A stretch of DNA of 64,000 bases from Arion vulgaris. Lineage: Eukaryota > Mollusca > Gastropoda > Stylommatophora > Arionidae. This document shows positions 10,601 to 60,435 of the stretch, one piece after another. Position 1 is the first letter of the stretch. Every line of letters begins with the position of its first letter. The stretch lies in NCBI GenBank assembly GCA_020796225.1, contig CM036756.1, forward strand, positions 69,981,043-70,045,042, given 5' to 3'. Position numbers and translations under genes: made by a program. The notes under the pieces were generated by a model. It worked only from the letters and a program-made list of their open reading frames with translations, was not told where the DNA came from and ran no database searches.

Positions 10601-10929
10601 GATTAGGTAGACACGAAATAATCCTCCAAGACATTTAAGAGGACTTTACCTATCACTCCGTGTTGATATAGGAACTCTTGTTCTCGTGTTAACTAATCCT
10701 TAGAAGGAGTGTATGGAGTGTTGCTCTTTAAATAACACTCCAGGCGACTTCATCACGAGACATCAAAGAATTGTAGAGACATCAAGAAAGCGCGATGTTG
10801 AAAACTATACACAGATGAGCACTCCTGCTTCCAGCTTCGATATTATACATCTTACATATCATATAACCATATGTTATCATTATCGCTTGTCATAAAAAGT
10901 ATATTATTACTACCATATTTTGCTTGATA
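10600..10929. other. No feature recognised
   Basis: Contains a 60-codon ORF without any recognisable motif. It may be further decayed LINE sequence downstream of the RT relic; I cannot show that. Confidence 0.3.
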
Positions 10930-12085
10930 GAATCAATATACCATACATTATGATTGATTAAAATTAAAATACCACACACTTTTTTTAAATTTATAAATAT
11001 ATCATACATGTATTTGATAGAATCAGTATACCATATATTTGCTTGATGCAATCAATATAAAATACTTTTGTGATAAAATCAATGTATCAGACATTTTCTT
11101 GATAAAATCCACAAATCATCCATTTTCTTTGATAAAATAAATAGACCATTCACTGTGTTTGATTTACCAATATTCTAGATAAAGCCAGTGTGCAATATTT
11201 TCCTCATAAAATCAATGTATCATCAATTTTGTCATTAAAAATGCACCATACAATTTCTTCATAAAATAATGTATTATAAATGTTCTTAATAAAATAACAT
11301 AACTTTTCTTCATAAAATAATGTATCCAAATTTTCTTCATAAAAATGTATTATAAATTATCTTCATAAAATAATGTATTATAATTTATCTTCAAAAATAT
11401 ATGTATTATAATTTATCTTCATAAAATAATGTATTATAAATTATCTTCATAAAATAATGTATTATAAATTTTCTTCATAAAATAATGTATCTAAATTTTC
11501 TTCATAAAAAAAGGATCACAAATTATCTTCATAAAATAATGTATTATAATTTATCTTCATAAATAAATGTATTATAATTTTTCTTCATAAAATAATGTAT
11601 CATTATTTATCTTCATAAAATAATGTATTATAATTTATCTTCGTAAATAAATGTATTAAAATTTTTCTTCATAAAATAATGTATCATAATTTTTCTTCAT
11701 AAAATAATGTATCATAATTTTTCTTCATAAAATAATGTATCATAATTTTTCTTCATAAAATGATGTATCATAAAATGTTTGAATAAAAATAATGTACCAT
11801 ATATTTTCTTCATAAATAAATGTATCATAAATTTTCTTCATAAAATAATGTATCATAAATTTTCTTCATAAAATAATGTATCATAAATTTTCTTCATACA
11901 ATAATGTATTATAATTTATCTTCAAAAATAAATGTATCATAAATTTTCTTCATACAATAATGTATTATAATTTATCTTCAAAAATAAATGTATCATAATT
12001 TTTCTTCATCAAATAATGTATGTGATAAAATGTTTGGATATTAATAATGTACCATATATTTTCCTCATAAAATCAATGTATCATA
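10930..12085. repeat. AT-rich minisatellite, about 28-bp unit
   Basis: Repeats of TTCTTCATAAAATAATGTAT with a short ATAATTT/CATAAATT linker. Units are diverged at the left edge (10930-11330) and most uniform at 11330-12000. No coding sense. Confidence 0.85.
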
Positions 12086-12315
12086 TATAAAATTTGTTTT
12101 ATAAAAATATAAAATACTGCATTATCCTAGTGTTTTTGTTTAGTTATTTAAAATTACAAACGTTGAAAAATGTATGCTTTATATTTCTATCATTGCATTA
12201 TATTTGTTGGTCAGAGTTTCAGCAGTTAGTTATAAACATGAGAACAAGAAAGACACAGTCATGGATAATGTTCATATTTCTGGCAGTCCTTAAATCATGA
12301 CTTACACATGGTAAT

Positions 12316-12415
12316 CAGACAATTGTACACAAGACAATTGTACACTAGACAATTGCACATGAGACAATTGCACACAATACAATTGAACATAACACAATTG
12401 AACACATGACAATAA
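12316..12415. repeat. Short tandem repeat, about 15-16 bp
   Basis: Seven or so units of the type AGACAATTGTACAC with drifting last bases (GACAATTGCACA, CACAATTGAACA). Confidence 0.8.
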
Positions 12416-12904
12416 TAATTAGCACGTGCTCAGTTGTCTATGTGTTTAGTTGTGTTGTGCTTTTCTGTAATGATATTCTTACACATCACCACTCTCTCCT
12501 TTCAATCGTTTCTTTTGTCCTACCTCTTGTGACTTGAAACGTTGTAGAAAAGAAGTATGAATCTCATGAACTAATTTTATCATTACAAAATGTTAAGTAC
12601 ATAGTCAGCAATAGTTATAACATACACAGAAAGATAGCACATGGAAATGAGATTCTGCAAGTCACCAAATCATACTTACAAGAATCAGACAAGTAACAAA
12701 TTTACCTAGCATCAAGAAAAGTTGCAACAAACCTTTGAATAATAATTACATGAAATTATTAGCAGAATGAAGTGTGTTTGGCATCTTATGTAAGAATCAA
12801 CAACCAACTCTTATAATGTTTCTTTCACACAAATATGTGACTTGAAAGTTACGTAGAAAAGAAGATAGTATAACGTAATTGATTCTCTCAAAAATGATTA
12901 AGTA
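12416..12904. other. Left flank of the giant satellite, no gene seen
   Basis: AT-rich. Words such as AAGTCACCAAATCAT and GACTTGAAA recall the satellite but not enough to call units. Confidence 0.35.
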
Positions 12905-13089
12905 CCATGAGAATGAATAAAATATACACAAACCACAACATGGTAAAACTCCGCAATGTACAACAACACGAATCACAGAGTAACAAAATATAAAACTCTA
13001 CAAGACTGGATTAACAACTGGAACAAGTGTCTGACATATATCAATCACAGAAGAAGTTTGCAAGATAAATATAAAAACCAAAACTGGGT

Positions 13090-15600
13090 TAATAACCGAG
13101 TAACAGTTGCTGACAACAGTCACCAGAGAAGCGAAGACAAATATATAACCACAACACTGTTAACAACCTGCAACAGTGGCTGACAACACAAGTCACCAGA
13201 GAAGCGCAAGACAAATATATAAAACCACAACACTGGGTTAACAACTGGTAACAGCATGTGCTGACAACACAAGTCACCAGAGAAGCGCAAGACAAATATA
13301 TAAAACCACAACACTGGGTTAACAACCCGGTAACAGTGTGCTGACAACACAAGTCACCAGAGAAGCGCAAGACAAATATATAAAACCACAACACTGGTTA
13401 ACAACTCGGTAACATGTGCTGACAACACAAGTCACCAGAGAAGCGCAAGACAAATATATAAAACCACAAGCACTGGTTAACAACCTGTAACAGTAGTGCT
13501 GACAACACAAGTCACCAGAAGACCTAAGACAAATATATAAAACCACAAACTGTTAACAACCCGGTAACAGTGTCTGACAACACAAGTCACGAGAAAGCGC
13601 AAGACAAATAATAAAACCACAACACTGGGTTAACAACCTGGTAACAATGTGCTGACAACACAAGTCACCAGAGAAGCGCAAGACAAATATATAAAACCAC
13701 AACACTGGGTTAACAACCGTAACAGTGTCTGACAACACAAGTCACCAGAGAAGCGCAAGACAAATATATAAAACCACAACACTGGTTAACAACCTGGTAA
13801 CAGTGTGCTGACAACACAAGTCACCAGAGAAGCGCAAGACAAATATATAAAACCACAACACTGGGTTAACAAACCGGTAACAGTGTGCTGACAACACAAG
13901 TCACCAGAGAAGCGCAAGACAAATATATAAAACCACAACACTGGGTTAACAACCTGGTAACAGTGTGCTGACAACACAAGTCACCAGAGAAGCGCAAGAC
14001 AAATATATAAAACCACAACACTGGGTTAACAACCTGGTAACAGTGTGCTGACAAACAAGTCACCAGAGAAGCGCAAGACAAATATATAAAACCACAACAC
14101 TGGGTTAACAACCTGGTAACAGTGTGCTGACAACACAAGTCACCAGAGAAGCGTAAGACAAATATATAAAACCACAACACTGGGTTAACAACCTGGTAAC
14201 AGTGTGCTGACAACACAAGTCACCAGAGAAGCGCAAGACAAATATATAAACCACAACACTGGGTTAACAACCTGGTAACAGTGTGCTGACAACACAAGTC
14301 ACCAGAGAAGCGCAAGACAAATATATAAAACCACAACACTGGGTTAACAACCTGGTAACAGTGTGCTGACAACACAAGTCACCAGAGAAGCGCAAGACAA
14401 ATATATAAAACCACGACACTGGGTTAACAATCTGGTAACAGTGTGCTGACAACACAAGTCACCAGAGAAGCGCAAGACAAATATATAAAACCACAACACT
14501 GGGTTAACAACCTGGTAACAGTGTGCTGACAACACAAGTCACCAGAGAAGCGCAAGACAAATATATAAAACCACAACACTGGGTTAACAACCTGGTAACA
14601 GGTGCTGACAACACAAGTCACCAGAGAAGCGCAAGACAAATATATAAAACCACAACACTGGGTTAACAACCTGGTAACAGTGTGCTGACAACACAAGTCA
14701 CCAGAGAAGCGCAAGACAAATATATAAAACCACAACACTGGGTTAACAAACCGGTAACAGTGTGCTGACAACACAAGTCACCAGAGAAGCGCAAGACAAA
14801 TATATAAAACCACAACACTGGGTTAACAACCTGGTAACAGTGTGCTGACAACACAAGTCACCAGAGAAGCGCAAGACAAATATATAAAACCACAACACTG
14901 GGTTAACAACCTGGTAACAGTGTGCTGACAACACAAGTCACCAGAGAAGCGCAAGACAAATATATAAAACCACAACACTGGGTTAACAACCTGGTAACAG
15001 TGTGCTGACAACACAAGTCACCAGAGAAGCGCAAGACAAATATATAAAACCACAACACTGGGTTAACAACCTGGTAACAGTGTGCTGACAACACAAGTCA
15101 CCAGAGAAGCGCAAGACAAATATATAAAACCACAACACTGGGTTAACAACCTGGTAACAGTGTGCTGACAACACAAGTCACCAGAGAAGCGCAAGACAAA
15201 TATATAAAACCACAACACTGGGTTAACAACCTGGTAACAGTGTGCTGACAACACAAGTCACCAGAGAAGCGCAAGACAAATATATAAAACCACAACACTG
15301 GGTTAACAACCTGGTAACAGTGTGCTGACAACACAAGTCACCAGAGAAGAGCAAGACAAATATATAAAACCACAACACTGGGTTAACAACCTGGTAACAG
15401 TGTGCTGACAACACAAGTCACCAGAGAAGCGCAAGACAAATATATAAAACCACAACACTGGGTTAACAAACCGGTAACAGTGTGCTGACAACACAAGTCA
15501 CCAGAGAAGCGCAAGACAAATATATAAAACCACAACACTGGTTACAACCGGTAACAGTGTGCTGACAACACAAGTCACCAGAGAAGCAAACAAATATATA
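13090..15600 (+). repeat. 80-bp monomer block 1
   Basis: Nearly uniform 80-bp units, especially 13770-15530. Variant units reading AAACCGGTAACAG occur at about 13870, 14750 and 15470. Indels concentrate at both edges. Confidence 0.9.
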
Positions 15601-17340
15601 AACCACAACACTGGGTTAACAACCTGGTAACAGTGTGCTGACAACACAATGTTACCAGAAGCGAAGACAAAGTGTTAACAACACAACACTGGGTTAACAA
15701 CCTGGTAACAGTGTGCTGACAACACAATCACTGGTTAAGCAACTAACAGTGTGCTGACAACCACAACACTGGTTAACAACCTGGTAACAGTGTGCTGACA
15801 ACACGAAGTCACCAACGAACAATTAGACACACAACACTGGGTTAACAACCTGGTAACAGTGTGCTGACAACACTGAGTTAACACCGAAGCAAAGTAAAAA
15901 GCGACCACAACACTGGGTTAACAACCTGGTAACAGTGTGCTGACAACAGCAAGAGCTGAGATTAAAACCTGGCTTAACGTAACGTTGCTGACAACACAAG
16001 CACTGGGTTAACAACCTGGAACAGTGTGCTGACAACACAACACTGGGTTAACAACCTGTAACAGTGTGCTGACAACACAACACTGGAGTTAACAACTGTA
16101 ACAGTGTGCTGACAACACAACACTGGGTTAACAACCTGGTAACAGTGTGCTGACAACACAACACTGGGTTAACAACCTGGGAACAGTGTGCTGACAACAC
16201 AACACTGGGTTAACAACCTGGTAACAGTGTGCTGACAACACAACACTGGGTTAACAACCTGGTAACAGGTGCTGACACAACACTTAACCGACAGTGTGCT
16301 TACAACAACCTGGTAACAGTGTGCTGACAACACAACACTGGGTTAACAACCTGGTAACAGTGTGCTGACAACACTGGGTTAACAACCTGGTAACAGTGTG
16401 CTGACAACACTGGGTTAACAACCTGTAACAGTGTGCTGACAACACAACACTGGGTTAAAACCTGTAACAGTGTGCTGACAACACAACACTGGGTTAACAA
16501 CCTGGTAACAGTGTGCTGACAACACTGGGTTAACAACCTGGTAACAGTGTGCTGACAACACAACACTGGGTTAACAACCTGGTAACAGTGTGCTGACAAC
16601 ACAACACTGGGTTAACAACCTGGTAACAGTGTGCTGACAACACTGGGTTAACAACCTGGTAACAGTGTGCTGACAACACAACACTGGGTTAACAACCTGG
16701 TAACAGTGTGCTGACAACACAACACTGGGTTAACAACCTGGTAACAGAGTGCTGACAACACAACACTGGGTTAACAACCTGGTAACAGTGTGCTGACAAC
16801 ACAACACTGGGTTAACAACCTGGTAACAGTGTGCTGACAACACAACACTGGGTTAACAACCTGGTAACAGTGTGCTGACAACACAACACTGGGTTAACAA
16901 CCTGGTAACAGTGTGCTGACAACACAACACTGGGTTAACAACCTGGTAACAGTGTGCTGACAACACAACACTGGGTTAACAACCTGGTAACAGTGTGCTG
17001 ACAACACAACACTGGGTTAACAACCTGGTAACAGTGTGCTGACAACACAACACTGGGTTAACAACCTGGTAACAGTGTGCTGACAACACAACACTGGGTT
17101 AACAACCTGGTAACAGTGTGCTGACAACACACATGGGTTAACAACGAACTGGCTCAACAGTAATAGTGCTGAAACACAACACTGGGTTAACAACCTGGTA
17201 ACAGTGTGCTGACAACACAACGTTAACAACCTGTAACAGGTGCTGAACAACACTGGTTAACAACTGAACGTGTCTACAACACTGGGTTAACAACCTGGTA
17301 ACAGTGTGCTGACAACACACACGTACACCACAGGAAAGCC
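15600..17340 (+). repeat. 41/36-bp monomer block 1
   Basis: Mainly 41-bp units, with 36-bp units at about 16366-16430, 16520 and 16640. Its borders at 15540-16010 and 17120-17330 are full of small indels. Confidence 0.9.
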
Positions 17341-18400
17341 TGGTCAAACAAAGTTATAAAACCACAACACTGGGTTAACAACCTGGTAACAGTGTGCTGA
17401 CAACACAAGTCACGAGTAGAACAAATCTGATAAAACCACAACACTGGGTTAACAACCTGTAACAGTGTGCTGACAACACAAGTCACAGAGAAGCGCAAGA
17501 GCAAATATAAAACCACAACACTGGGTTAACAACCTGGTAACAGTGTGCTGACAACACAAGTCACCATAGAAGCGCAAGACAAATATATAAAACCACAACA
17601 CTGGGTTAACAACCTGGTAACAGTGTGCTGACAACACAAGTCACCAGAGAAGCGCAAGACAAATATATAAACCACAACACTGGGTTAACAACCTGGTAAC
17701 AGTGTGCTGACAACACAAGTCACCAGAGAAGCGCAAGACAAATATATAAAACCACAACACTGGGTTAACAACCTGGTAACAGTGTGCTGACAACACAAGT
17801 CACCAGAGAAGCGCAAGACAAATATATAAAACCACAACACTGGTTAACAACCTGGTAACAGTGTGCTGACAACACAAGTCACCAGAGAAGGCGCAAGACA
17901 AATATATAAAACCACAACACTGGTTAACAACCTGGTAACAGTGTGCTGACAACACAAGTCACCAGAGAGCAAGACAAATATATAAACCACAACACTGGGT
18001 TAACAACCTGGTAACAGTGTGCTGACAACACAAGTCACCAGAGAAGCGCAAGACAAATATATAAAACCACAACACTGGTTAACAACCTGGTAACAGTGTG
18101 CTGACAACACAAGTCACCAGAGAAGCGCAAGACAAATATATAAAACCACAACACTGGGTTAACAACCTGGTAACAGTGTGCTGACAACACAAGTACCAGA
18201 GAGCGCAAGACAAATATATAAACCACAACACTGGGTTAACAACCTGGTAACAGTGTGCTGACAACACAAGTCACCAGAGAAGCGCAAGACAAATATATAA
18301 AACCACGACACTTGGTTAACAACCCGGTAACAGTGTGCTGACAACACAAGTCACCAGGGAAGCGCAAGACAAATATATAAGAACCAACACTGGGTTAACA
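17340..18400 (+). repeat. 80-bp monomer block 2
   Basis: 80-bp units with more single-base deletions than block 1 (for example GGGTT reduced to GGTT). Confidence 0.85.
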
Positions 18401-19655
18401 ACCTGGTAACAGTGTGCTGACAACACATGGGTTAACAACCTGAGTAACATATATGAAACCACAACACTGGGTTAACAACCTGGTAACAGTGTGCTGACAA
18501 CACAACACGGGCAACAAACTGGACATATTGAAACACAACACTGGGTTAACAACCTGGTAACAGTGTGCTGACAACACAATGGTTAACAACGGAACAGGTG
18601 CTAAATACACAACACTGGGTTAACAACCTGGTAACAGTGTGCTGACAACACAGTACAACTGGCAGTTAAAACCACAACACTGGTTAACAACTGACGAACA
18701 GTGTGCTGACAACACAACACTGGGTTAACAACCTGGTAACAGTGTGCTGACAACACAACACTGGGTTAACAACCTGGTAACAGTGTGCTGACAACACAAC
18801 ACTGGGTTAACAACCTGGTAACAGTGTGCTGACAACACAACACTGGGTTAACAACCTGGTAACAGTGTGCTGACAACACAACACTGGGTTAACAACCTGG
18901 TAACAGTGTGCTGACAACACAACACTGGGTTAACAACCGGTAACAGTGTCTGACAACACAACACTGGGTTAACAACCTGGTAACAGTGTGCTGACAACAC
19001 AACACTGGGTTAACAACCTGGTAACAGTGTGCTGACAACACAACACTGGGTTAACAACCTGGTAACAGTGTGCTGACAACACAACACTGGGTTAACAACC
19101 TGGTAACAGTTTGCTGACAACACAACACTGGGTTAACAACCTGGTAACAGTGTGCTGACAACACAACACTGGGTTAACAACCTGGTAACAGTGTGCTGAC
19201 AACACTGGGTTAACAACCTGGTAACAGTGTGCTGACAACACAACACTGGTTAACAACCTGGTAACAGTGTGCTGACAACACAACACTGGGTTAACAACCT
19301 GGTAACAGTGTGCTGACAACACAACACTGGGTTAACAACCTGGTAACAGTGTGCTGACAACACAACACTGGGTTAACAACCTGGTAACAGTGTGCTGACA
19401 ACACAACACTGGGTTAACAACCTGGTAACAGTGTGCTGACAACACAACACTGGGTTAACAACCTGGTAACAGTGTGCTGACAACACAACACTGGGTTAAC
19501 AACCTGGTAACAGTGTGCTGACAACACAACACTGGGTTAACAACCTGGTAACAGTGTGCTGACAACACAACACTGGGTTAACAACCTGGCAACAGTGTTG
19601 AAACACAACACTGGGTTAACAACCTGGTAACAGTGTGCTGACAACACAACACGAG
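18400..19655 (+). repeat. 41/36-bp monomer block 2
   Basis: Mainly 41-bp units; a 36-bp unit near 19200. The first 300 bp are degraded. Confidence 0.85.
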
Positions 19656-21550
19656 AAGCCAAGACAAATATATAAAACCACAACACTGGGTTAACAACCT
19701 GGTAACAGTGTGCTGACAACACAAGTCACCGAGTAAGGCAACGACAGTCATATAAACCACAACACTGGGTTAACAACCGGTAACAGTGTGCTGACAACAC
19801 AAGTCACAGAGAGCAAGACAAATATATAAAACCACAACACTGGGTTAACAACCTGGTAACAGTGTGCTGACAACACAAGTCACCAGAGAAGCCTAAGACA
19901 AATATATAAAACCACAACACTGGGTTAACAACCTGGTAACAGTGTGCTGACAACACAAGTCACCAGAGAAGCGCAAGACAAATATATAAAACCACAACAC
20001 TGGGTTAACAACCTGGTAACAGTGTGCTGACAACACAAGTCACCAGAGAAGCGCAAGACAAATATATAAAACCACAACACTGGGTTAACAAACCGGTAAC
20101 AGTGTGCTGACAACACAAGTCACCAGAGAAGCGCAAGACAAATATATAAAACCACAACACTGGGTTAACAACCTGGTAACAGTGTGCTGACAACACAAGT
20201 CACCAGAGAAGCGCAAGACAAATATATAAAACCACAACACTGGGTTAACAACCTGGTAACAGTGTGCTGACAACACAAGTCACCAGAGAAGCGCAAGACA
20301 AATATATAAAACCACAACACTGGGTTAACAAACCGGTAACAGTGTGCTGACAACACAAGTCACCAGAGAAGCGCAAGACAAATATATAAAACCACAACAC
20401 TGGGTTAACAACCTGGTAACAGTGTGCTGACAACACAAGTCACCAGAGAAGCGCAAGACAAATATATAAAACCACAACACTGGGTTAACAACCTGGTAAC
20501 AGTGTGCTGACAACACAAGTCACCAGAGAAGCGCAAGACAAATATATAAAACCACAACACTGGTTAACAACCTGGTAACAGTGTGCTGACAACACAAGTC
20601 ACCAGAGAAGCGCAAGACAAATATATAAAACCACAACACTGGGTTAACAACCTGGTAACAGTGTGCTGACAACACAAGTCACCAGAGAAGCGCAAGACAA
20701 ATATATAAAACCACAACACTGGGTTAACAACCTGGTAACAGTGTGCTGACAACACAAGTCACCAGAGAAGCGCAAGACAAATATATAAAACCACAACACT
20801 GGGTTAACAAACCGGTAACAGTGTGCTGACAACACAAGTCACCAGAGAAGCGCAAGACAAATATATAAAACCACAACACTGGTTAACAACCTGGTAACAG
20901 TGTGCTGACAACACAAGTCACCAGAGAAGCGCAAGACAAATATATAAAACCACAACACTGGGTTAACAACCTGGTAACAGTGTGCTGACAACACAAGTCA
21001 CCAGAGAAGCGCAAGACAAATATATAAAACCACAACACTGGGTTAACAAACCGGTAACAGTGTGCTGACAACACAAGTCACCAGAGAAGCGCAAGACAAA
21101 TATATAAAACCACAACACTGGGTTAACAACCTGGTAACAGTGTGCTGACAACACAAGTCACCAGAGAAGCGCAAGACAAATATATAAAACCACAACACTG
21201 GGTTAACAACCTGGTAACAGTGTGCTGACAACACAAGTCACCAGAGAAGCGCAAGACAAATATATAAAACCACAACACTGGGTTAACAACCTGGTAACAG
21301 TGTGCTGACAACACAAGTCACCAGAGAAGCGCAAGACAAATATATAAAACCACAACACTGGGTTAACAACCTGGTAACAGTGTGCTGACAACACAAGTCA
21401 CCAGAGAAGCGCAAGACAAATATATAAAACCACAACACTGGGTTAACAACCTGGTAACAGTGTGCTGACAACACAAGTCACCAGAGAAGCGCAAGACAAA
21501 TATATAAAACCACAACACTGGGTTAACAACCTGGTAACAGTGTGCTGACA
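19655..21550 (+). repeat. 80-bp monomer block 3 with 240-bp higher-order period
   Basis: Uniform 80-bp units. The AAACCGGTAACAG variant recurs at about 20090, 20330, 20810 and 21050: steps of 240, 479 and 239 bp, that is every third (or sixth) unit. Confidence 0.9.
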
Positions 21551-23040
21551 ACACAATCACGGGTAACACCTGGCAACATGTGCATACAACACACACTGGG
21601 TTAACAACCTGGTAACAGTGTGCTGACAACACAACACTGGGTTAGACAAATTGAAACAGTCGACAACACTGGGTTAACAACCTGGTAACAGTGTGCTGAC
21701 AACACAACACCGGGTAATATACAACACATGGTTAACACTGGTAAGGCTGACAACACAACACTGGGTTAACAACCTGGTAACAGTGTGCTGACAACACAAC
21801 ACTGGGTTAACAACCTGGTAACAGTGTGCTGACAACACAACACTGGGTTAACAACCTGGTAACAGTGTGCTGACAACACAACACTGGGTTAACAACCTGC
21901 AACAGTGTGCTGAAACACAACACTGGGTTAACAACCTGGTAACAGTGTGCTGACAACACAACACTGGGTTAACAACCTGGTAACAGTGTGCTGACAACAC
22001 AACACTGGGTTAACAACCTGGTAACAGTGTGCTGACAACACAACACTGGGTTAACAACCTGGTAACAGTGTGCTGACAACACAACACTGGGTTAACAACC
22101 TGGTAACAGTGTGCTGACAACACAACACTGGGTTAACAACCTGGTAACAGTGTGCTGACAACACTGGGTTAACAACCTGGTAACAGTGTGCTGACAACAC
22201 TGGGTTAACAACCTGGTAACAGTGTGCTGACAACAAATGGGTTAACAACCTGGTAACAGTGTGCTGACAACACAACACTGGGTTAACAACCTGGTAACAG
22301 TGTGCTGACAACACAACACTGGGTTAACAACCTGGTAACAGTGTGCTGACAACACTGGGTTAACAACCTGGTAACAGTGTGCTGACAACACTGGGTTAAC
22401 AACCTGGTAACAGTGTGCTGACAACACAACACTGGGTTAACAACCTGGTAACAGTGTGCTGACAACACGGGTTAACAACCTGGTAACAGTGTGCTGACAA
22501 CAACCTGGGTTAACAACCTGGTAACAGTGTGCTGACAACACAACACTGGGTTAACAACCTGGTAACAGTGTGCTGACACACAACACTGGGTTAACAACCT
22601 GGTAACAGTGTGCTGACAACACAACACTGGGTTAACAACCTGGTAACAGTGTGCTGACAACACAACACTGGGTTAACAACCTGGTAACAGTGTGCTGACA
22701 ACACAACACTGGGTTAACAACCTGGTAACAGTGTGCTGACAACACAACACTGGGTTAACAACCTGGTAACAGTGTGCTGACAACACAACACTGGGTTAAC
22801 AACCTGGTAACAGTGTGCTGACAACACAACACTGGGTTAACAACCTGGTAACAGTGTGCTGACAACACTGGGTTAACAACCTGGTAACAGTGTGCTGACA
22901 ACACAACACTGGGTTAACAACCGGTAACAGTGTGCTGCAACACAACACTGGTTAAACGAACAGTGCTGACAACACCTGGGTTAACAACCTGGTAACAGTG
23001 TGCTGACAACACAACACAGGTAACAACTAAACATTAAACT
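21550..23040 (+). repeat. 41/36-bp monomer block 3
   Basis: 41-bp units with 36-bp units near 22160, 22195, 22350, 22385 and 22865; degraded borders. Confidence 0.85.
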
Positions 23041-24110
23041 ACAACACTGGGTTAACAACCTGGTAACAGTGTGCTGACAACACAAGTCACCAGAGAAGAG
23101 CAAGACAAATATATAAAACCACAACACTGGGTTAACAACCTGGTAACAGTGTGCTGACAACACAAGTCACCAGAGAAGCGCAAGACAAATATATAAAACC
23201 ACAACACTGGGTTAACAACCTGGTAACAGTGTGCTGACAACACAAGTCACCAGAGAAGCGCAAGACAAATATATAAAACCACAACACTGGGTTAACAAAC
23301 CGGTAACAGTGTGCTGACAACACAAGTCACCAGAGAAGCGCAAGACAAATATATAAAACCACAACACTGGGTTAACAACCTGGTAACAGTGTGCTGACAA
23401 CACAAGTCACCAGAGAAGCGCAAGACAAATATATAAAACCACAACACTGGGTTAACAACCTGGTAACAGTGTGCTGACAACACAAGTCACCAGAGAAGCG
23501 CAAGACAAATATATAAAACCACAACACTGGGTTAACAACCTGGTAACAGTGTGCTGACAACACAAGTCACCAGAGAAGCGCAAGACAAATATATAAACCA
23601 CAACACTGGGTTAACAACCTGGTAACAGTGTGCTGACAACACAAGTCACCAGAGAAGCGCAAGACAAATATATAAAACCACAACACTGGGTTAACAACCC
23701 GGTAACAGTGTGCTGACAACACAAGTCACCAGAGAAGCGCAAGACAAATATATAAAACCACAACACTGGGTTAACAACCTGGTAACAGTGTGCTGACAAC
23801 ACAAGTCACCAGAGAAGCGCAAGACAAATATATAAAACCACAACACTGGGTTAACAACCTGGTAACAGTGTGCTGACAACACAAGTCACCAGAGAAGCGC
23901 AAGACAAATATATAAAACCACAACACTGGGTTAACAACCCGGTAACAGTGTGCTGACAACACAAGTCACCAGAGAAGCGCAAGACAAATATATAAAACCA
24001 CAACACTGGGTTAACAACCTGGTAACAGTGTGCTGACAACACAAGTCACTGAAAGCGCAAGACAAATATATAAACCACAACACTGGGTTAACAACCTGGT
24101 AACAGTGTGC
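23040..24110 (+). repeat. 80-bp monomer block 4
   Basis: Uniform 80-bp units; AACCCGGTAACAG variants at about 23697 and 23937, again 240 bp apart. Confidence 0.9.
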
Positions 24111-26512
24111 TGAACACAAGCACAAAACGGGTTACAAGCCAACAGTGTGCGCACAACACTGGGTTAACAACCCGGTAACAGTGTGCTGACAACACAACAC
24201 TGGGTTAACAACCTGGTAACAGTGTGCTGACAAACACACTGGGTTAACAACCTGGTAACAGTGTGCTGACAACACAACACTGGGTTAACAACCTGGTAAC
24301 AGTGTGCTGACAACACAACACTGGGTTAACAACCTGGTAACAGAGTGCTGACAACACAACACTGGGTTAACAACCTGGTAACAGTGTGCTGACAACACAA
24401 CACTGGGTTAACAACCTGGTAACAGTGTGCTGACAACACTGGGTTAACAACCTGGTAACAGTGTGCTGACAACACAACACTGGGTTAACAACCTGGTAAC
24501 AGTGTGCTGACAACACAACACTGGGTTAACAACCTGGTAACAGTGTGCTGACAACACAACACTGGGTTAACAACCTGGTAACAGTGTGCTGACAACACAA
24601 CACTGGGTTAACAACCTGGTAACAGTGTGCTGACAACACAACACTGGGTTAACAACCTGGTAACAGTGTGCTGACAACACAACACTGGGTTAACAACCTG
24701 GTAACAGTGTGCTGACAACACAACACTGGGTTAACAACCTGGTAACAGTGTGCTGACAACACAACACTGGGTTAACAACCTGGTAACAGTGTGCTGACAA
24801 CACACACTGGGTTAACAACCTGGTAACAGTGTGCTGAACACACACTGGGTTAACAACCTGGTAACAGTGTGCTGACAACACAACACTGGGTTAACAACCT
24901 GGTAACAGTTTGCTGACAACACAACACTGGGTTAACAACCTGGTAACAGTGTGCTGACAACACAGTTAACAACTGAACTGTGCTGCACCTGTACAACCTG
25001 GTAACAGTGTGCTGACACACAACACTGGGTTAACAACCTGGTAACAGTGTGCTGACAACACAACACTGGGTTAAAACCTGGTAACAGTGTGCTGACAACA
25101 CAACACTGGGTTAACAACCTGGTAACAGTGTGCTGACAACACAACACTGGGTTAACAACCCGGTAACAGTGTGCTGACAACACAACACTGGGTTAACAAC
25201 CTGGTAACAGTGTGCTGACAACACAACACTGGGTTAACAACCTGGTAACAGTGTGCTGACAACACAACACTGGGTTAACAACCTGGTAACAGTGTGCTGA
25301 CAACACTGGGTTAACAACCTGGTAACAGTGTGCTGACAACACAACACTGGGTTAACAACCTGGTAACAGTGTGCTGACAACACTGGGTTAACAACCTGGT
25401 AACAGTGTGCTGACAACACACCACTGGGTTAACAACCTGGTAACAGTGTGCTGACAACACTGGGTTAACAACCTGGTAACAGTGTGCTGACAACACAACA
25501 CTGGGTTAACAACCTGGTAACAGTGTGCTGACAACACTGGGCTAACAACCTGGTAACAGTGTGCTGACAACACAACACTGGGTTAACAACCTGGTAACAG
25601 TGTGCTGACAACACTGGGTTAACAACCTGGTAACAGTGTGCTGCACATAACAACCTAAGTTGCACACTGGGTTAACAACCTGGTAACAGTGTGCTGACAA
25701 CACAACACTGGGTTAACAACCTGGTAACAGTGTGCTGACAACACAACACTGGGTTAACAACCTGGTAACAGTGTGCTGACAACACAACACTGGGTTAACA
25801 ACCTGGTAACAGTGTGCTGACAACACAACACTGGGTTAACAACCTGGTAACAGTGTGCTGACAACACAACACTGGGTTAACAACCTGGTAACAGTGTGCT
25901 GACAACACAACACTGGGTTAACAACCTGGTAACAGTGTGCTGACAACACAACACTGGGTTAACAACCTGATAACAGTGTGCTGACAACACTGGGTTAACA
26001 ACCTGGTAACAGTGTGCTGACAACACTGGGTTAACAACCTGGTAACAGTGTGCTGACAACACAACACTGGGTTAACAACCTGGTAACAGTGTGCTGACAA
26101 CACAACACTGGGTTAACAACCTGGTAACAGTGTGCTGACAACACAACACTGGGTTAACAACCTGGTAACAGTGTGCTGACAACACAACACTGGGTTAACA
26201 ACCTGGTAACAGTGTGCTGACAACACAACACTGGGTTAACAACCTGGTAACAGTGTGCTGACAACACAACACTGGGTTAACAACCTGGTAACAGTGTGCT
26301 GACAACACAACACTGGGTTAACAACCTGGTAACAGTGTGCTGACAACACAACACTGGGTTAACAACCTGGTAACAGTGTGCTGACAACACAACACTGGGT
26401 TAACAACCTGGTAACAGTGTGCTGACAACACAACACTGGGTTAACAACCTGGTAACAGTGTGCTGACAACACAACACTGGGTTAACAACCTGGTAACAGT
26501 GTGCTGACAAAA
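24110..26512 (+). repeat. 41/36-bp monomer block 4 with a 77-bp dimer
   Basis: 41-bp units. Between about 25260 and 25630, 41- and 36-bp units alternate, giving a 77-bp higher-order repeat. The block ends in GACAAAAGAAGAAG, which is unique to the array end. Confidence 0.9.
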
Positions 26513-26764
26513 GAAGAAGTACATGGTTACTTAAACAACAAAAAATCAGGTTCTTTGCGAACTATAGCATTTCAGCTTCTATTACTAGCTTTTAAAAATG
26601 TATGAGTATCCTACCCTCTGTATCTTGAAATGTTTCAGGTCCAGTCCCTGGCATGTAAAAGGTTGCCCACCTCATATACATTCGTCAAGAAACATTTCAA
26701 GTTAGGAAATATTGATAAACTACGGCTCTGTCATGTTACACAATTACCGCCCAGCAGTACACAA

Positions 26765-26935
26765 CACGACCCAAAACGACCTGGAGGAGAACGATAGAGC
26801 AAGAGCTGAAGGAAATGAATCATAGCTGGAACACAATACAGAGGAGGGCCATGAACAGGGAAGAATGGTGTACGTTTGTTGTGCCCTAAACGCCAAGGGC
26901 GTAACAGGCTAAAGAGAGAGAGAGAGAGAGAGTAC
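26765..26935 (+). pseudogene. LINE C-terminal relic with GA tail
   Basis: The plus frame reads RPKTTWRRTIEQELKEMNHS, then WNTIQRRAMNREEWCTFVVP and a stop. This is the GRPKTTWRR...ELK...DRxxWRxFV ending of RTE-like LINE ORFs. A GA dinucleotide run at about 26912-26931 follows as the 3' tail. Confidence 0.75.
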
Positions 26936-27164
26936 ACAACAACGAGCACTACTATTAAGAAGAAATGGTTTCAATGCCAAAAGTCGCACACGTAAACGGT
27001 GGAGCTCACAAATATCAGAGACGGTAGGAAACACAATATGCGAGGCACACTCGTGGGAACTTGCTAGAACTCTTTGCATAGTCTGAACGCTGAAATGCAC
27101 AACGGGAATAGTCAGGTTCAATTTCAATTTGGAATATCTTCATTGCACTCCGGACATGTTCATA

Positions 27165-28821: not shown

Positions 28822-31330
28822 TGTAGCTGGAAGTGTTCTAACAAGTAGGGGATAGCTAAAATTGTTCTTACATGTAGGGAGATACCTGAAAGTGTTCTAA
28901 CACGTAGGGGGATCACTAAAATTGTTCTTACATGTAGGGAGATACCTGAAAGTGTTCTTACATGTAGGGAGATACCTGAAAGTGTTCTAACATGTAGGGA
29001 GATACCTGAAAGTGTTCTAACACGTAGGGGGATCACTAAAATTGTTCTTACATGTAGGGAGATACCTGAAAGTGTTCTTACATGTAGGGAGATACCTGAA
29101 AGTGTTCTAACACGTAGGGGGATCACTAAAATTGTTCTTACATGTAGGGAGATACCTGAAAGTGTTCTAACACGTAGGGGGATCACTAAAATTGTTCTTA
29201 CATGTAGGGAGATACCTGAAAGTGTTCTTACATGTAGGGAGATACCTGAAAGTGTTCTAACATGTAGGGAGATACCTGAAAGTGTTCTAACACGTAGGGG
29301 ATCACTAAAATTGTTCTTACATGTAGGAGATACCTGAAAGTGTTCTAACACGTAGGGGATCACTAAAATTGTTCTTACACGTAGGAGATACCTGAAAGTG
29401 TTCTTACATGTAGGAGATACCTGAAAGTGTTCTAACATGTAGGAGATACCTGAAAGTGTTCTAACACGTAGGGGATCACTAAAATTGTTCTTACATGTAG
29501 GAGATACCTGAAAGTGTTCTAACACGTAGGGGATCACTAACATTGTTCTTACACGTAGGAGAATACCTGAAAGTGCTCTAACATGTAGGGAGATCACTAA
29601 AATTGCTCTAACATGTAGGGAGATACCTGAAAGTGTTCTAACACGTAGGGGGATCACTAAAATTGTTCTTACATGTAGGGAGATACCTGAAAGTGTTCTA
29701 ACACGTAGGGGGATCACTAAAATTGTTCTTACACGTAGGGAGATACCTGAAAGTGTTCTTACATGTAGGGAGATACCTGAAAGTGTTCTAACATGTAGGG
29801 AGATACCTGAAAGTGTTCTAACACGTAGGGGGATCACTAAAATTGTTCTTACATGTAGGGAGATACCTGAAAGTGTTCTAACACGTAGGGGGATCACTAA
29901 AATTGTTCTTACACGTAGGGAGATACCTGAAAGTGCTCTAACATGTAGGGAGATCACTAAAATTGCTCTAACATGTAGGGAGATACCTGAAAGTGTTCTA
30001 ACATGTAGGGAGATACCTGAAAGTGTTCTAACATGTAGGGAGATACCTGAAAGTGTTCTAACATGTAGGGAGATACCTGAAAGTGTTCTAACATGTAGGG
30101 AGATGGGGGATCACTAAAACTGTTCTAATGTGTATGGGGATAGTTAATAGTGTTCTAACACTTAAGGGGTAGTTAAACGTGTTCTAACCTAACACGTAGT
30201 GAACTATCTAAAAGTGTTTGAACACGTAGTGAACTATCTAAAAGTGTTTGAACACGTAGGGGACTAGCTGAAAGTTATTGAACACGTAGGAGGCTAGCTG
30301 AAAGTTATTGAGCACGTAGGAGGCTAGCTGAACGTAAGAGGCTAGCTAAATATGTTCAAACACGTAGGCGGCTAACTGAAAGTTATTGAAGACGTAAGAG
30401 GATAGCTAAATATGTTCAAACACGTAGGATGCTAGCTGGAAGTTATTGAGCACGTAGGAGCCTAGCTGAAAGTGATCTAACACGTAGGAGGCTAACTAAA
30501 TATGTTCAAACACGTAGGATGCTAGTTGGAAGTTATTGAGCACGTAGGAGCCTAGCTGAAAGTGATCTAACACGTAGGAGACTAGCTGAAAGTTATTAAA
30601 CACGTAGGAGGCTAACTAAAGGTTATTGAACACGTAAGAGGATAGCTAAATATGTTCAAACACGTAGGAGTCTAGCTAAAAGGTATTGAACACGTAGGAG
30701 GCTAACTAAATATGTTCAAACACGTAAGAGGCTAACTAAATATGTTCAAACACGTAGGAGGCTAACTAAATATGTTCAAACACGTAGGAGGCTAACTAAA
30801 TATGTTCAAACACGTAGGAGGCTAACTAAATATGTTCAAACACGTAGGAGGCTAACTAAATATGTTCAAACACGTAGGAGTCTAGCTAAAAGTTATTGAA
30901 CACGTAAGAGGCTAGCTAAATATGTTCAAACACGTAGGAGACTAGCTGAAAGTTATTGAACACGTAGGAGGCTAACTAAATATGTTTAAACACGTAAGAG
31001 GCTAACTAAATATGTTCAAACACGTAAGAGTCTATCTAAATATGTTCAAACACGTAGGAGACTAGCTGAAAGTTATTGAACACGTAGGAGGCTAACTAAA
31101 TATGTTCAAACACGTAAGAGGCTAACTAAATATGTTCAAACACGTAAGAGTCTATCTAAATATGTTCAAACACGTAGGAGACTAGCTGAAAGTTATTGAA
31201 CACGTAAGAGGCTAGCTAAATATGTTCAAACACGTAAGAGGCTAACTAAATATGTTCAAACACGTAAGAGTCTATCTAAATATGTTCAAACACGTAGGAG
31301 GTAGCTGAAAGTTATACAGTAAGGGCACAA
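28822..31330. repeat. 30-bp satellite, two subfamilies
   Basis: Left part (28822-30110): 30-bp units ACATGTAGGGAGATACCTGA plus AAGTGTTCTA alternate with ACACGTAGGGGGATCACTAA plus AATTGTTCTT, giving a 60-bp dimer pattern in places. Units of 28-29 bp occur at 29290-29570. Right part (30110-31330): diverged 30-bp units of the type CACGTAGGAGGCTAACTAAA plus TATGTTCAAA. A 431-codon minus-strand ORF over the left part is a periodicity artefact. Origin unknown. Confidence 0.9.
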
Positions 31331-31640: not shown

Positions 31641-34600
31641 ATATGTTATACTGTGCTTCTATACAAACCATTCATGTTGATACTGAGCTTTTACAACATT
31701 AGTGTCATAAACAAACCATTATGTTGTACTGTGCTTTTCATATAACAAACCATTATGTTGACGTTTCATTAAAAACCATTATGTTGTACTGTGCTTTTCA
31801 TATAACAAACCATTATGTTGTACTTCTTATATACAAACCATATTGACTGTCTTTTCTATATAACAAACCATTATGTTGTACTGTGCTTTTCATATAACAA
31901 ACCATTATGTTGTACTGTGCTTTTCATATAACAAACCATTATGTTGTACTGTGCTTTTCATATAACAAACCATTATGTTGTACTGTGCTTTCATATAACA
32001 AACCATTATGTTGTACTGTGCTTTTCATATAACAAACCATTATGTTGTAATCTATTAAAACTTGTTGTATTCTTTTCATATAACAAACCATTATGTTGTA
32101 CTGTGCTTTTCATATAACAAACCATTATGTTGTACTGTGCTTTTCATATAACAAACCATTATGTTGTACTGTGCTTTTCATATAACAAACCATTATGTTG
32201 TACTGTGCTTTTCATATAACAAACCATTATGTTGTACTGTGCTTTCATATAACAAACCATTATGTTGTACTGTGCTTTTCATATAACAAACCATTATGTT
32301 GTACTGTGCTTTTCATATAACAAACCATTATGTTGTACTGTGCTTTTCATATAACAAACCATTATGTTGTACTGTGCTTTTCATATAACAAACCATTATG
32401 TTGTACTGTGCTTTCATATAACAAACCATTATGTTGTACTGTGCTTTTCATATAACAAACCATTATGTTGTACTGTGCTTTTCATATAACAAACCATTAT
32501 GTTGTACTGTGCTTTTCATATAACAAACCATTATGTTGTACTGTGCTTTCATATAACAAACCATTATGTTGTACTGTGCTTTTCATATAACAAACCATTA
32601 TGTTGTACTGTGCTTTTCATATAACAAACCATTATGTTGTACTGTGCTTTTCATATAACAAACCATTATGTTGTACTGTGCTTTTCATATAACAAACCAT
32701 TATGTTGTACTGTGCTTTTCATATAACAAACCATTATGTTGTACTGTGCTTTTCATATAACAAACCATTATGTTGTACTGTGCTTTTCATATAACAAACC
32801 ATTATGTTGTACTGTGCTTTTCATATAACAAACCATTATGTTGTACTGTGCTTTTCATATAACAAACCATTATGTTGTACTGTGCTTTTCATATAACAAA
32901 CCATTATGTTGTACTGTGCTTTTCATATAACAAACCATTATGTTGTACTGTGCTTTTCATATAACAAACCATTATGTTGTACTGTGCTTTTCATATAACA
33001 AACCATTATGTTGTACTGTGCTTTTCATATAACAAACCATTATGTTGTACTGTGCTTTTCATATAACAAACCATTATGTTGTACTGTGCTTTTCATATAA
33101 CAAACCATTATGTTGTACTGTGCTTTTCATATAACAAACCATTATGTTGTACTGTGCTTTTCATATAACAAACCATTATGTTGTACTGTGCTTTTCATAT
33201 AACAAACCATTATGTTGTACTGTGCTTTTCATATAACAAACCATTATGTTGTACTGTGCTTTTCTTATAACAAACCATTATGTTGTACTGTGCTTTCATA
33301 TAACAAACCATTATGTTGTACTGTGCTTTTCATATAACAAACCATTATGTTGTACTGTGCTTTTCATATAACAAACCATTATGTTGTACTGTGCTTTTCA
33401 TATAACAAACCATTATGTTGTACTGTGCTTTTCATATAACAAACCATTATGTTGTACTGTGCTTTTCATATAACAAACCATTATGTTGTACTGTGCTTTT
33501 CATATAACAAACCATTATGTTGTACTGTGCTTTTCATATAACAAACCATTATGTTGTACTGTGCTTTTCATATAACAAACCATTATGTTGTACTGTGCTT
33601 TTCATATAACAAACCATTATGTTGTACTGTGCTTTTCATATAACAAACCATTATGTTGTACTGTGCTTTTCATATAACAAACCATTATGTTGTACTGTGC
33701 TTTTCATATAACAAACCATTATGTTGTACTGTGCTTTTCATATAACAAACCATTATGTTGTACTGTGCTTTTCATATAACAAACCATTATGTTGTACTGT
33801 GCTTTTCATATAACAAACCATTATGTTGTACTGTGCTTTCATATAACAAACCATTATGTTGTACTGTGCTTTTCATATAACAAACCATTATGTTGTACTG
33901 TGCTTTTCATATAACAAACCATTATGTTGTACTGTGCTTTTCATATAACAAACCATTATGTTGTAATGTGCTTTTCATATAACAAACCATTATGTTGTAC
34001 TGTGCTTTCATATAACAAACCATTATGTTGTACTGTGCTTTTCATATAACAAACCATTATGTTGTACTGTGCTTTTCATATAACAAACCATTATGTTGTA
34101 CTGTGCTTTTCATATAACAAACCATTATGTTGTACTGTGCTTTTCATATAACAAACCATTATGTTGTACTGTGCTTTTCATATAACAAACCATTATGTTG
34201 TACTGTGCTTTTCATATAACAAACCATTATGTTGTACTGTGCTTTCATATAACAAACCATTATGTTGTACTGTGCTTTTCATATAACAAACCATTATGTT
34301 GTACTGTGCTTTTCATATAACAAACCATTATGTTGTACTGTGCTTTTCATATAACAAACCATTATGTTGTACTGTGCTTTTCATATAACAAACCATTATG
34401 TTGTACTGTGCTTTTCATATAACAAACCATTATGTTGTACTGTGCTTTTCATATAACAAACCATTATGTTGTACTGTGCTTTTCATATAACAAACCATTA
34501 TGTTGTACTGTGCTTTTCATATAACAAACCATTATGTTGTACTGTGCTTTTCATATAACAAACCATTATGTTGTACTGTGCTTTTCATATAACAAACCAT

Positions 34601-37355: not shown

Positions 37356-37580
37356 CTTGATGGAAGAACCGAATTAAACTAAACATCTGTGGTGGACAGC
37401 CAACGCTCTCAAGTATCCTGAATAGTCCGTCTCTATTGGTGTTATATGTTTTACTAAGGTCAATGGAACCAATAGAGAGTGACGTGTTTCTCTCTGCATT
37501 TTTCTGGTATCGGCCTCATTGAGAAGACTGAGTCTAAAGTCTACAATTTTTACACGGAACACGCACTGCGACACATGGTA
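37356..37580 (-). pseudogene. LINE reverse transcriptase island between two satellites
   Basis: On the minus strand: SQCVFRVKIVDF, then PEKCREK, then (one frameshift later) NTSLSIGSIDLSKTYNTNRD and GLFRILESVGCPPQMFSLIR. This is the SQCGFR...LQEKCREQ...FIDLTKAFDTVxRDGLW...GCPxxxxxLIRxFH block of RTE-like RTs (fingers and start of palm, including the first catalytic Asp in IDLSK). The left end runs into the 34-bp array and the right end into the 39-bp array. Confidence 0.8.
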
Positions 37581-40936: not shown

Positions 40937-41084
40937 AACATTAGACACGTAGTGAAAAAAAAAAGCAATCCACATTGGTAACAGTGAATGGAACAATTAA
41001 GGAGCTTTCAAATATGAAGTCACTCGCTCTATATGAATCGGAAACATAGCGGATGAGAAAGCAATATATCGAGAGACTTCTTCT

Positions 41085-41800
41085 TCTTTTGTCGTCACAC
41101 TGCTACCGGGTTGTTGCCCAGTGTTGTGGTTTTCTGTTTTTGTCTTGCGCTGTTCTGGTGGCTTGGGTGATTGTTATTTTTGCTCTTTGACAGGATTCTG
41201 CTATGCCATCTAACCATCTTTTTCGTGGTCTTCCTCTCGCCTTCTTTCCTGATGTTCTGTTGTAGAAGACTTTGTATACTGTGGAGTTTGGATGCATTCT
41301 CATTAAGTGGCCAAACCACTTCATTCTTTGTTTCTCAATGTAATTCAAGCAAGGTTCTGTGCCAACTGTCTTTCTTATGCTGATGTTGGTGACTCTGTCT
41401 TTTCTGGTGTTGTTGGTAACTTTTCGCAGGCATCGCATTTCCTATGTCGTTATTTTTAGTGCCTGGGATTTGCTCATTGTCCATGTTTGGCTCTGGTAAC
41501 ACAAAGTAGGTATGAAAATGCTGTTGATCATCTGTTGTTTAGCTGTCAGTGAAATTTTTGGGTGCCTTATCAATGGGGCTAGCTGGTAGGTTACAGCATT
41601 TGCTTTTTCAACTCTAGCCTCTATATCTCCATCTAATCTTTTGTGAATATGCTTCCTAAGTATTTGAATTCTTTCACTTGGTTTATTTTAGTGCCATTGA
41701 TATAGATGTCTAGTTTATTATGTTTTCTTCCCATATTCATTGTTTCTGTTTTAGTGTTGTTGATTTTCATGTCATGGTTTATACAATCGAGAGACTAGTT
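41085..41800 (-). pseudogene. RTE-like LINE, RT C-terminal region and 3' end (relative of the giant satellite)
   Basis: Minus-strand frames, in order: INNTKTETMNMGRKHNKLDI, KINQVKEFKYLGSIFTK, RLDGDIEARVEKANAVTYQL, CYQSQTWTMSKSQALKIT, EMRCLRKVTNNTRKDRVTN, RMKWFGHLMRM, GRPRKRWLDGIAESC, ITQATRTAQDKNRKPQHW and a stop. This is the complete post-palm part of an RTE-like ORF2 with few frameshifts, so it is younger than most relics here. The 3' tail after the stop is GACGACAAAAGAAGAAGAAG. Its last ~80 bp align with the 80-bp satellite monomer at 12.9-26.5 kb. Confidence 0.85.
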
Positions 41801-42784: not shown

Positions 42785-43640
42785 TTGGATCTAACATTCT
42801 TGGTGGGCACACGGTTGGATTACAAGAAACCCTGATCCTATACTTGGTGGGCACACAGTTGGATTACAAGAAACCCTGATCCTATACTTGGTAGCGCACG
42901 GCTGGATTACAAGAAACCCTGATCCTATACTTAGTGGGCACACAGTTGGATTACAAGAATTCCTGATCCTATACTTGGTAGCGCACGGCTGGATTATAAG
43001 AAGCCCTGATCCTATACTTGGTAGCGCATGGCTGGATTATAAGAAACCCTGATCCTATACTTGGTGTGCACGCGGCTGGATTACAAGAAACCCTGATCCT
43101 ATACTTGGTGGGCACAGAGTTAGATTATAAGAAACCCTGATCGTATACTTGGTGGGCGCATGGCTGGATTATAAGAAGCCCTGATCCTATACTTGATAGG
43201 CACACAGTTGAATTACAAGAATTCCTGATCCTATACTTGGTGGGCGCATGGCTGGATTACAAGAAGCCCTGATCCTATACTTGGTGTGCACGCGGCTGGA
43301 TTACAAGAAGCCCTGATCCTATACTTGGTGGGCACACGGCTGGATTACAAGAAACCCTGATCCTATACTTGGTGGGCACACGGCTGGATTACAAGAAACC
43401 CTGATCCTATACTTGATGGGCACACAGTTGAATTACAAGAATTCCTGATCCTATACTTGGTGTGCACACAGTTAGATTACAAGAAACAGTGATCCTATAC
43501 TTGGTGTGCACACAGTTAGATTACAAGAAACAGTGATCCTATATTTGGTGTGTACACAGTTAGGTTACAAGAAACAGTGATCCTATATTTGGTGGGTACA
43601 CAATTAAATTACAAGAAACCCCGATCCTATAATTGGCGGC
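42785..43640. repeat. 45-bp satellite
   Basis: About 19 units containing ATTACAAGAAACCCTGATCC and TATACTTGGTGGGCACACAG; a 43-bp variant has GGTAGCGCACGGCTGG. Divergence between units is greater than in the other arrays. It starts about 40 bp after the RNase H motif of the preceding LINE relic. Confidence 0.88.
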
Positions 43641-60160: not shown

Positions 60161-60435
60161 TATTATTATTATTATTATCTTTGTGGTCCATCTTTTGCGT
60201 GACCGGCCTTTTGCTTTGTACCCATTGTATCGGAGCAGCATTGCTCTTTGAGGTGCACTGTCTGTTGGTAATCTGTATATGTGGCCGAACTATTTACTTT
60301 GTTGTTTCTTGATGAAGTTCATTACTGATGTTGTACCCACTTTTTCCTGATGTCTTCATTTCTCAACCGGTCTCTTCTTGTTACCTCCACCATTCTGCGT
60401 AGACACTTCATCTCTGTCGTGATTATGTGAAAGAA
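60161..60435 (-). pseudogene. LINE RT C-terminal relic with ATT tail
   Basis: The minus strand reads EMKCLRRMVEVTRRDRLRNE, DIRKK, then after a frameshift VMNFIKKQQSK-FGHIYRLP, and KGRSRKRWTTK. An ATT triplet run at 60161-60178 follows as its 3' tail. Confidence 0.75.

Follow-up and report, generated by a model that had tools for sequence, protein, structure and literature searches.

The origin of the initial tandem copies from which a satellite DNA grows is an open question. The array considered here lies on contig CM036756.1 of the gastropod Arion vulgaris (assembly GCA_020796225.1). The window, i.e. the whole stretch of 64 000 nucleotides analysed here (forward-strand positions 69,981,043 to 70,045,042), carries on its plus strand, at 12905..26512, a satellite of ∼13.6 kb whose unit corresponds to the last 80 bp of a long interspersed nuclear element (LINE), comprising C-terminal codons, the stop codon and a short 3′ untranslated region (UTR). 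Tandem Repeats Finder and a tiling with half-units resolved this array into ∼86 full 80-bp units and ∼170 short units of 41 or 36 bp. The same genome holds a series that runs from LINE copies with a single 3′ end, through copies with 2–31 tandem 3′ ends, to the 13.6-kb satellite, and the junctions between the repeats point to the reverse transcriptase of the LINE.

The link to a LINE was evident within the window itself, from a LINE relic near 41 kb. With the array masked, the 3′ end of this relic (minus strand, 41168-41083) aligned to a doubled satellite monomer with 83% identity over 87 bp (blastn, E 1e-19); the alignment score was 97, whereas 2000 dinucleotide shuffles reached a maximum of 39. 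The first-pass annotation had reported this match, and both its shared blocks and the common reading AQDK..KPQHW were borne out, except that the LINE stop, which had been placed directly after HW, actually follows ...HWATTR. It had also stated correctly that the array closes once with the LINE's own tail, as ACAAAAGAAGAAG was found at just two places in the window, 26507 (+) and the relic. The repeat codes for the C-terminal residues of the LINE protein, and this C-terminus is kept in the independent proteins P0001, P0002, P0066 and P0010. Specifically, the ends of proteins from other contigs read QATRTAQDKNRKPRHWATTR in P0002 (89% identical), QITRQAQDKYRKPRHWGTTR in P0001 (71%) and QITREAQNKYFKPRHWAATR in P0066. 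A profile of four such sequences, built without the window relic, matched the array in 75 rows (E ≤ 1; best 3.5e-8); a broader family profile detected the relic and no rows in the array. Likewise, LINE copies elsewhere in the genome bear this 3′ end. Because the C-terminus encoded by the repeat is retained in independent LINE proteins, it is nearly certain that the satellite derived from the LINE 3′ end, and not the LINE from the satellite. The first-pass comparison was with the relic, but the monomer is closer to the unit of another LINE subfamily, the 'Y-type', from which it differs at 3 of 80 positions. By this measure the Y-type, which is dispersed over many contigs of the 1.52-Gb genome, is the closer source, and the 41-kb relic belongs to a sister subfamily, the 'N-type'.

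We searched this genome (3227 contigs) with the satellite as probe. Scoring the best 40 of 160 candidates gave at least 31 loci outside the window, all of which were fetched. Each of the 31 holds a tandem array, with 2–31 units per locus and 316 units in total, and the arrays finish with the LINE tail, sometimes in a variant form. LINE sequence extends > 140 bp upstream of the end of the first unit at 26 of the 31 loci, placing a LINE open reading frame (ORF) before the array; of the rest, L009 has 104 bp, L025 has 114 bp, L037 and L039 fall short of one unit, and L014 is masked upstream. Since the estimated 5′ ends differ from copy to copy, the loci represent separate insertions. Clear target-site duplications (TSDs) of 9–14 bp, located within 15 nt of the expected 5′ end and enclosing ORF, array and tail, were seen at six of the loci (L010, L015, L028, L029, L033 and L035); TSDs were ambiguous at L019, L021 and L023, and the other 22 loci showed none or nothing convincing. 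The spacing of the units fell into four classes at 259 of 285 junctions (80 bp: 203; 75 bp: 39; 73 bp: 11; 116 bp: 6), while 26 fit none of the four class patterns; these frequencies are biased towards 80 bp by the choice of probe, and because the search pattern for units ended at the LINE terminus, the left side of each junction was fixed in advance. The tail variant at L010, L028, L036 and L037 starts with GACAAAAGCAGA and resembles the 73-bp junction, in which GACAAAAG is joined to CAGAGAAG; this is a possible clue to the 73-bp class.

A second sample was drawn with a 501-bp ORF query that lies outside the 80-bp unit, again scoring the best 40, here of 3921 candidates. One of these 40 matches was L033, and the other 39 were read for 1 kb downstream. 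L061 was counted together with L050, as the two are 98% identical through their flanks. Among the resulting 39 independent copies, tandem 3′ ends occurred in 12 (L033, L041, L042, L050, L054, L056, L058, L062, L064, L065, L072, which has one partial extra unit, and L076) and a single 3′ end in 27, three of them damaged (L043, L051 and L068). A single 3′ end is the common form, and tandem ends are frequent. The intermediates for which the first-pass annotation had proposed to look, LINE copies with one, two, three or more tandem 3′ ends, do exist: 1, 2, 3, 4, 5 and so on up to 31.

The junctions of the ORF-chosen copies have one constant and one variable side. On the left, the LINE 3′ terminus (GACA, GACAA or GACAAAAG) was found in 11 of the 12 tandem copies; on the right, several upstream start points are used, giving periods of 116, 80, 75, 73 and ∼33 bp. 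Different classes can be mixed in one array, e.g. successive units of 115, 116, 73, 73 and 73 bp in L050, or 115 followed by 75, 72 and 74 bp in L033, and L028 alternates between 75 and 73 bp. An N-type copy (L023:1-250, plus strand) carries six tandem 3′ ends of 31–32 bp with a homologous junction, GACA joined to CTGGG. Judging by this copy, the tandem-end habit extends beyond the Y-type; the retrieved sequence contained six N-type or N-like 3′ ends, of which this one is tandem. At three of the satellite-probed loci, L025, L037 and L039, the 5′ end of the insertion lies inside the array: no LINE sequence can be recognised to its left, and the unit furthest upstream is, by eye, truncated so that it does not reach back to the start point of the units that follow. 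A single-ended insertion truncated in this way could not have supplied the units; hence the array was either present when the 5′ end formed, or was trimmed by a later deletion. Repeats anchored at the terminus with variable start points, together with 5′ ends inside arrays, would fit the action of a reverse transcriptase at integration better than a later duplication of DNA.

Target-primed reverse transcription begins at the 3′ end of the RNA. If the enzyme stopped after 33–116 nt and restarted at that end, the sense product would read 3′ terminus, then start point to 3′ terminus, then tail. Such restarts predict a single tail at the far end, inner junctions with little or no tail, variable start points and, opposite the tail, a truncated ORF or none, and the observed copies match this layout. 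We propose two stages. In the first, the enzyme would often copy just the last 33–116 nt of the RNA during target-primed reverse transcription, and would then return to the RNA 3′ end and restart, once or many times, before entering the ORF or stopping, to leave one tail, several tandem 3′ ends and a truncated ORF or none at all. In the second, these seeds would be lengthened and homogenised at the DNA level by unequal exchange or slippage. The window array would be one such seed, with no ORF left, that expanded to its present length and lost the 5′ half of the unit from part of the array through deletion at a short repeat (CACAA). Many loci argue for the first stage; the window array, and changes shared among the units of other arrays, argue for the second. 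The sequences show the origin of the satellite, its direction from LINE to satellite, the recurrence at many loci and the pattern of the junctions; from these genomic products we infer that the first repeats were made by a jumping enzyme rather than by DNA repair, and we lean towards the complete scheme, in which jumps back to the RNA 3′ end at integration seed arrays and one seed was later amplified and homogenised here, as the somewhat better bet.

If arrays had formed late, their units would be expected to share private changes, and this formed the basis of an age test. Over the last 69 bp, 24 single-ended copies deviate by 4.4% from the master consensus and by 8.2% from each other. The divergence and age tests excluded ten of the 39 fetched ORF-chosen loci, in which this 69-bp core is absent, disrupted or irregular or which, like L061, duplicate another locus (L041, L042, L043, L051, L056, L061, L064, L065, L068 and L072). 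Under a strict criterion, 25 of 36 arrays had no non-master substitution common to all units, compared with 13.2 expected under a uniformly random later origin (P 3e-5); a recount that ignored gaps gave 24 of 36 (P 2e-4). Ten arrays (L010, L013, L018, L029, L032, L033, L037, L038, L050 and L076), one of them with 31 units, lack even a change shared by the majority of units and look as old as their insertions, and within-array divergence attained the expectation for a star phylogeny in L029, L033 and L076. Some arrays were thus probably born at or near insertion. In a tree of 300 bp of ORF from 17 copies (9 tandem, 8 single), tandem and single copies were intermixed, with 7 label changes against a shuffled mean of 5.9 (476 of 500 shuffles were as low). 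Units likewise showed no positional correspondence between loci, the similarity of first to first units being 0.914 and that of first to internal units 0.918. Both results speak against one tandem master, although part of the copies may have inherited their repeats.

The structure of the satellite in the window is more complex than first described. Each full unit of 80 bp consists of two halves, 'C' (5′, 39 nt) and 'H' (3′), and tiling with these gave 341 tiles, 86 C and 255 H. The first-pass annotation had described an 80-bp array; 80-bp units are indeed present, but the array is not uniform and also contains H-only 41-bp blocks. Four (C-H)n blocks (13640..15650, ∼17330-18390, ∼19645-21550 and ∼23080-24080, all on the plus strand) are interleaved with four mainly H-only blocks (15650..17330, ∼18390-19645, ∼21550-23080 and ∼24080-26509). 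As expected of a long, homogeneous head-to-tail satellite, 266 of 323 interior tiles have at most one edit. The 5′ edge (12905..13640) is degenerate and rich in deletions; its first part, 12905-12985, still resembles the monomer (z 6.6), while five pieces covering 12100-12905 compared with it no better than shuffles. Upstream of this edge, tblastn with 26 LINE proteins (E 0.01) found no LINE coding sequence, the first match being at 13186. At the other edge the array is terminated a single time by the LINE's GACAAAAGAAGAAG tail (tail sequence ACAAAAGAAGAAG at 26507..26519, plus strand). The units are near-identical and carry three fixed differences from the master, which indicates that this array was homogenised later. 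A search for a higher-order repeat found few 60-mers present exactly twice in the array, and the printed block borders do not look shared. At these borders garbled half-units alternate with perfect H tiles (15560-16000, 17120-17480, 18400-18710, 19640-19830, 21555-21750, 22940-23040 and 24040-24160); 32 of 323 interior tiles are noisy, and their neighbours are clean in 55 of 64 cases, which was equalled by 10 of 2000 permutations. The garbled tiles are probably a consensus error, as if reads from C and H had been averaged at one place, which makes block order and array length provisional. As for candidate TSDs of this array, AAGTACAT follows the tail and recurs at 12595, and AAGTACCATG adjoins the array on its left, where the edge is garbled.

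Several of our observations weigh against an origin at integration, and some of them would favour its chief competitor, in which single-ended copies insert and microhomologies then allow slippage or unequal exchange to duplicate the 3′ ends locus by locus. In L065 a repeat of 31 bp lies within the H region and has an internal left break, away from the terminus, as slippage would give, and other left breaks at the 31 loci may have been missed, given the search pattern. A 4-nt microhomology coincides with the 75- and 33-bp classes, and with these two only. The dimer pattern of L058, the alternating units of L028 and the clear homogenisation of the window array also suit duplication after insertion. 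The age test gives a mixed answer. At a criterion of 80% of the units, 20 of 36 arrays were free of shared changes (P 0.014); by simple majority 10 were free against 13.2 expected, i.e. no excess, and the remaining 26 show at least one shared non-master change, approximately as a random later origin predicts. Among the 21 arrays of 2–6 units the strict test gave 12 against 7.9 (P 0.05), and in large arrays the strict criterion is tilted towards an old origin, since a single unit that has mutated conceals a change shared by the rest. Some shared changes may be variants of the source element, in which case the test would be conservative. The median within-array divergence amounted to 0.65 of that expected for a star phylogeny, and by these figures growth or homogenisation after insertion is common. 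Clear TSDs were confined to the six loci named above and are lacking at L025, L037 and L039; for the window array no TSD is proven, the 5′ edge is unreadable and there are the signs of consensus error. Finally, the ORF tree has no well-supported branch and a single tandem clade is not formally rejected (p-AU, the P-value of the approximately unbiased test, 0.061), which leaves room for inherited tandem RNAs. Even so, we regard duplication after insertion as rather unlikely for the first repeats. Against it stand the left breaks at the RNA terminus in all but one of the ORF-chosen tandem copies and the ten arrays that lack a majority-shared change. Slippage at the longest direct repeats (7 and 6 nt) in the master 3′ end would yield periods of 44 and 52 bp; neither class, and hence no use of these repeats, is seen in the spacing lists. 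The truncated upstream units of L025, L037 and L039 would in addition demand a later 5′ deletion. For growth to 13.6 kb, duplication at the DNA level is the best account, as the first-pass annotation had envisaged for the 3′ end of an insertion; for the first step, the junctions fit a reverse transcriptase better.

It is also conceivable, but improbable, that a few master elements carry tandem 3′ ends and transmit them in their RNA, with the unit number inherited at each insertion. Such masters would explain why most junctions at the satellite-probed loci (203 of 285) are of the 80-bp class, why 116- and 73-bp junctions recur at several loci, and how changes common to most units of an array could arise; the one-clade tree, as noted, is compatible with them. 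They are at odds with the absence of positional correspondence between units and with the intermixing of tandem and single copies on the unresolved ORF tree. Moreover, among the arrays inspected no two loci match in unit order and number beyond uniform runs of 80 or 73 bp, except L050 and L061, which are one locus, and the homologous junction of GACA with CTGGG recurs in a diverged subfamily. That the large window array is mostly an assembly artefact would be in keeping with the garbled tiles beside perfect ones at block borders, with the deletion-rich 5′ edge and with the fact that 12814-12932 is a degenerate copy of 12504-12632; this we consider very improbable, as 31 other loci have arrays of the satellite unit, most with LINE ORF and tail, and the doubt is limited to the length and block order of the window array. 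Uptake of a pre-existing satellite by the LINE as its 3′ end has a negligible probability. It had been named as the outcome that would overturn a LINE origin, together with a match no better than shuffled controls; the match exceeds its controls, and the frame that encodes a C-terminus common to independent LINE proteins in effect refutes uptake. The 27 of 39 ORF-chosen copies with a single, non-repeated 3′ end also speak against it, and no evidence in its favour came to light.

The N-type relic itself (41078..41785, minus strand) is a 5′-truncated, frameshifted copy with one 3′ end (tblastn, 89% to P0002 and 71% to P0001). A candidate TSD of 10 bp, GTCTCTCGAT, was identified by eye in its flanks, with the 5′ copy at 41786..41795 and the 3′ copy at 41068..41077. 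That it belongs to a LINE is indicated by its match to 26 of 26 homologues from the first search; two longer homologues (P0011 and P0031) contain RVT_1, and LINE-1 ORF2 chains match P0031 weakly. The differing 5′ ends among the 31 loci, the GAA-rich tail, the relic's own TSD and those at six loci are likewise LINE hallmarks. A Pfam search with the C-terminal 178 aa of the relic gave 0 families. The element may be 'RTE-like', as the first-pass annotation labelled it. Rfam gave 0 matches in the window at gathering score. The H unit had no match in the genome_contigs and viral_contigs collections, the LINE 3′ end pattern and P0002 had none in viral_contigs, and a search of genome_contigs with a LINE alignment gave 85 pattern matches, 0 of them confirmed. 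A recognition hairpin was considered and is not claimed: the stems predicted for the 3′ ends of LINE and satellite are alike, but their folding energies are not more favourable than those of shuffled sequences (z -1.05 to 0.14).

Further remnants of LINE proteins of the same broad family were detected by tblastn and hmmsearch at 60182-60456 (-), 62450-62608 (-), 26913-27083 (+), 46067-46270 (-) and 63801-63905 (-), the last three being weak. Shortly after the array, the segment 26720-26935 (+) resembles by eye the 3′ terminus of a further LINE family, with a (GA)n tail; its profile match is weak (E 0.017). On the other side, directly to the left of the array, 12504-12632 and 12814-12932 are mutual degenerate copies (score 105; maximum of 500 shuffles, 76). 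Other minisatellite arrays occupy 10911-12085, 28827-31315, 31705-37355, 37560-39509, 42799-43636, 49879-50097, 50994-51294, 54674-59100 and 62960-63455; when eight of their consensus units (all but the 40-bp unit at 50994) were compared with the 31 loci, only a 45-bp unit matched (L010, 85%). An ORF of 462 aa at 51375-52763 (+) matches DUF3987 (PF13148, E 3e-11), which is unexpected in an animal genome and perhaps part of a mobile element. An uninterrupted ORF with a KIN17 winged-helix domain (PF10357, E 6e-16) at 169-966 (+) is possibly a retrocopy, and had no match in the protein search at E 1e-3.

The behaviour proposed for the LINE enzyme has partial precedents. Bibillo and Eickbush in 2004 (cited in PMC2881922) reportedly observed end-to-end template jumping by the R2 reverse transcriptase, a non-LTR (lacking long terminal repeats) enzyme that would run from one RNA to the end of another; here the jumps would come after 33–116 nt and repeatedly, and are read from genomic products alone. 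Starting from an RNA of ∼120 nt, the DRT2 reverse transcriptase makes tandem repeats, with 5 the commonest number and a range that extends beyond 100, although in the part of the account considered it is a bacterial defence enzyme with a dedicated non-coding RNA, whose product, unlike that of the LINE, is not integrated as satellite seeds (PMC12039810). Short tandem tails of LINEs and of short interspersed nuclear elements (SINEs), e.g. TAAATG in HAmo, have been tied to slippage at initiation; there too the 3′ repeats are linked to reverse transcription, but as described in the sections consulted their units are a few bases long, as against 33–116 bp with coding sequence here (PMC2653535). Helitron arrays combine multiple 5′ ends with a single 3′ end, and so also have one end in tandem, but in the sections considered they arise by a rolling-circle DNA mechanism and at the opposite end (PMC12628747).

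Satellites derived from LINE 3′ ends are themselves known, namely chicken HinfI from CR1 and the cetacean common satellite from L1 (PMC9659126). The HinfI unit likewise consists of the LINE ORF2 end (partial ORF2) plus 3′ UTR; in the passages considered, it is listed as one satellite, whereas here many LINE copies have tandem 3′ ends of their own with different start points and a single tail, and no series of 1–31 tandem ends at dispersed insertions is described there for the cetacean satellite. A 2025 review of satellites from transposons names DNA slippage, replication loops, stem-loops of miniature inverted-repeat transposable elements (MITEs), rolling circles, repeated insertion and unequal exchange; jumping by a reverse transcriptase is absent from its list of mechanisms in the first part of section 4 (PMC12628747). 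Nor is such a case described in the parts consulted of PMC6947457, PMC8392823, PMC2653535 and PMC8091179, and the literature searched contained no description of 30–120-bp tandem 3′ ends at many LINE insertions.

For the LINE family studied here, it is slightly better than an even bet that the enzyme behaves at integration like a sloppy telomerase or DRT2, recopying the last 33–116 nt of its RNA, one or more times, in about a third of insertions, and that retrotransposition itself creates satellite seeds. The tandem tail ends at other copies of this LINE in the genome suggest that its mobility may be what gives rise to such seeds.

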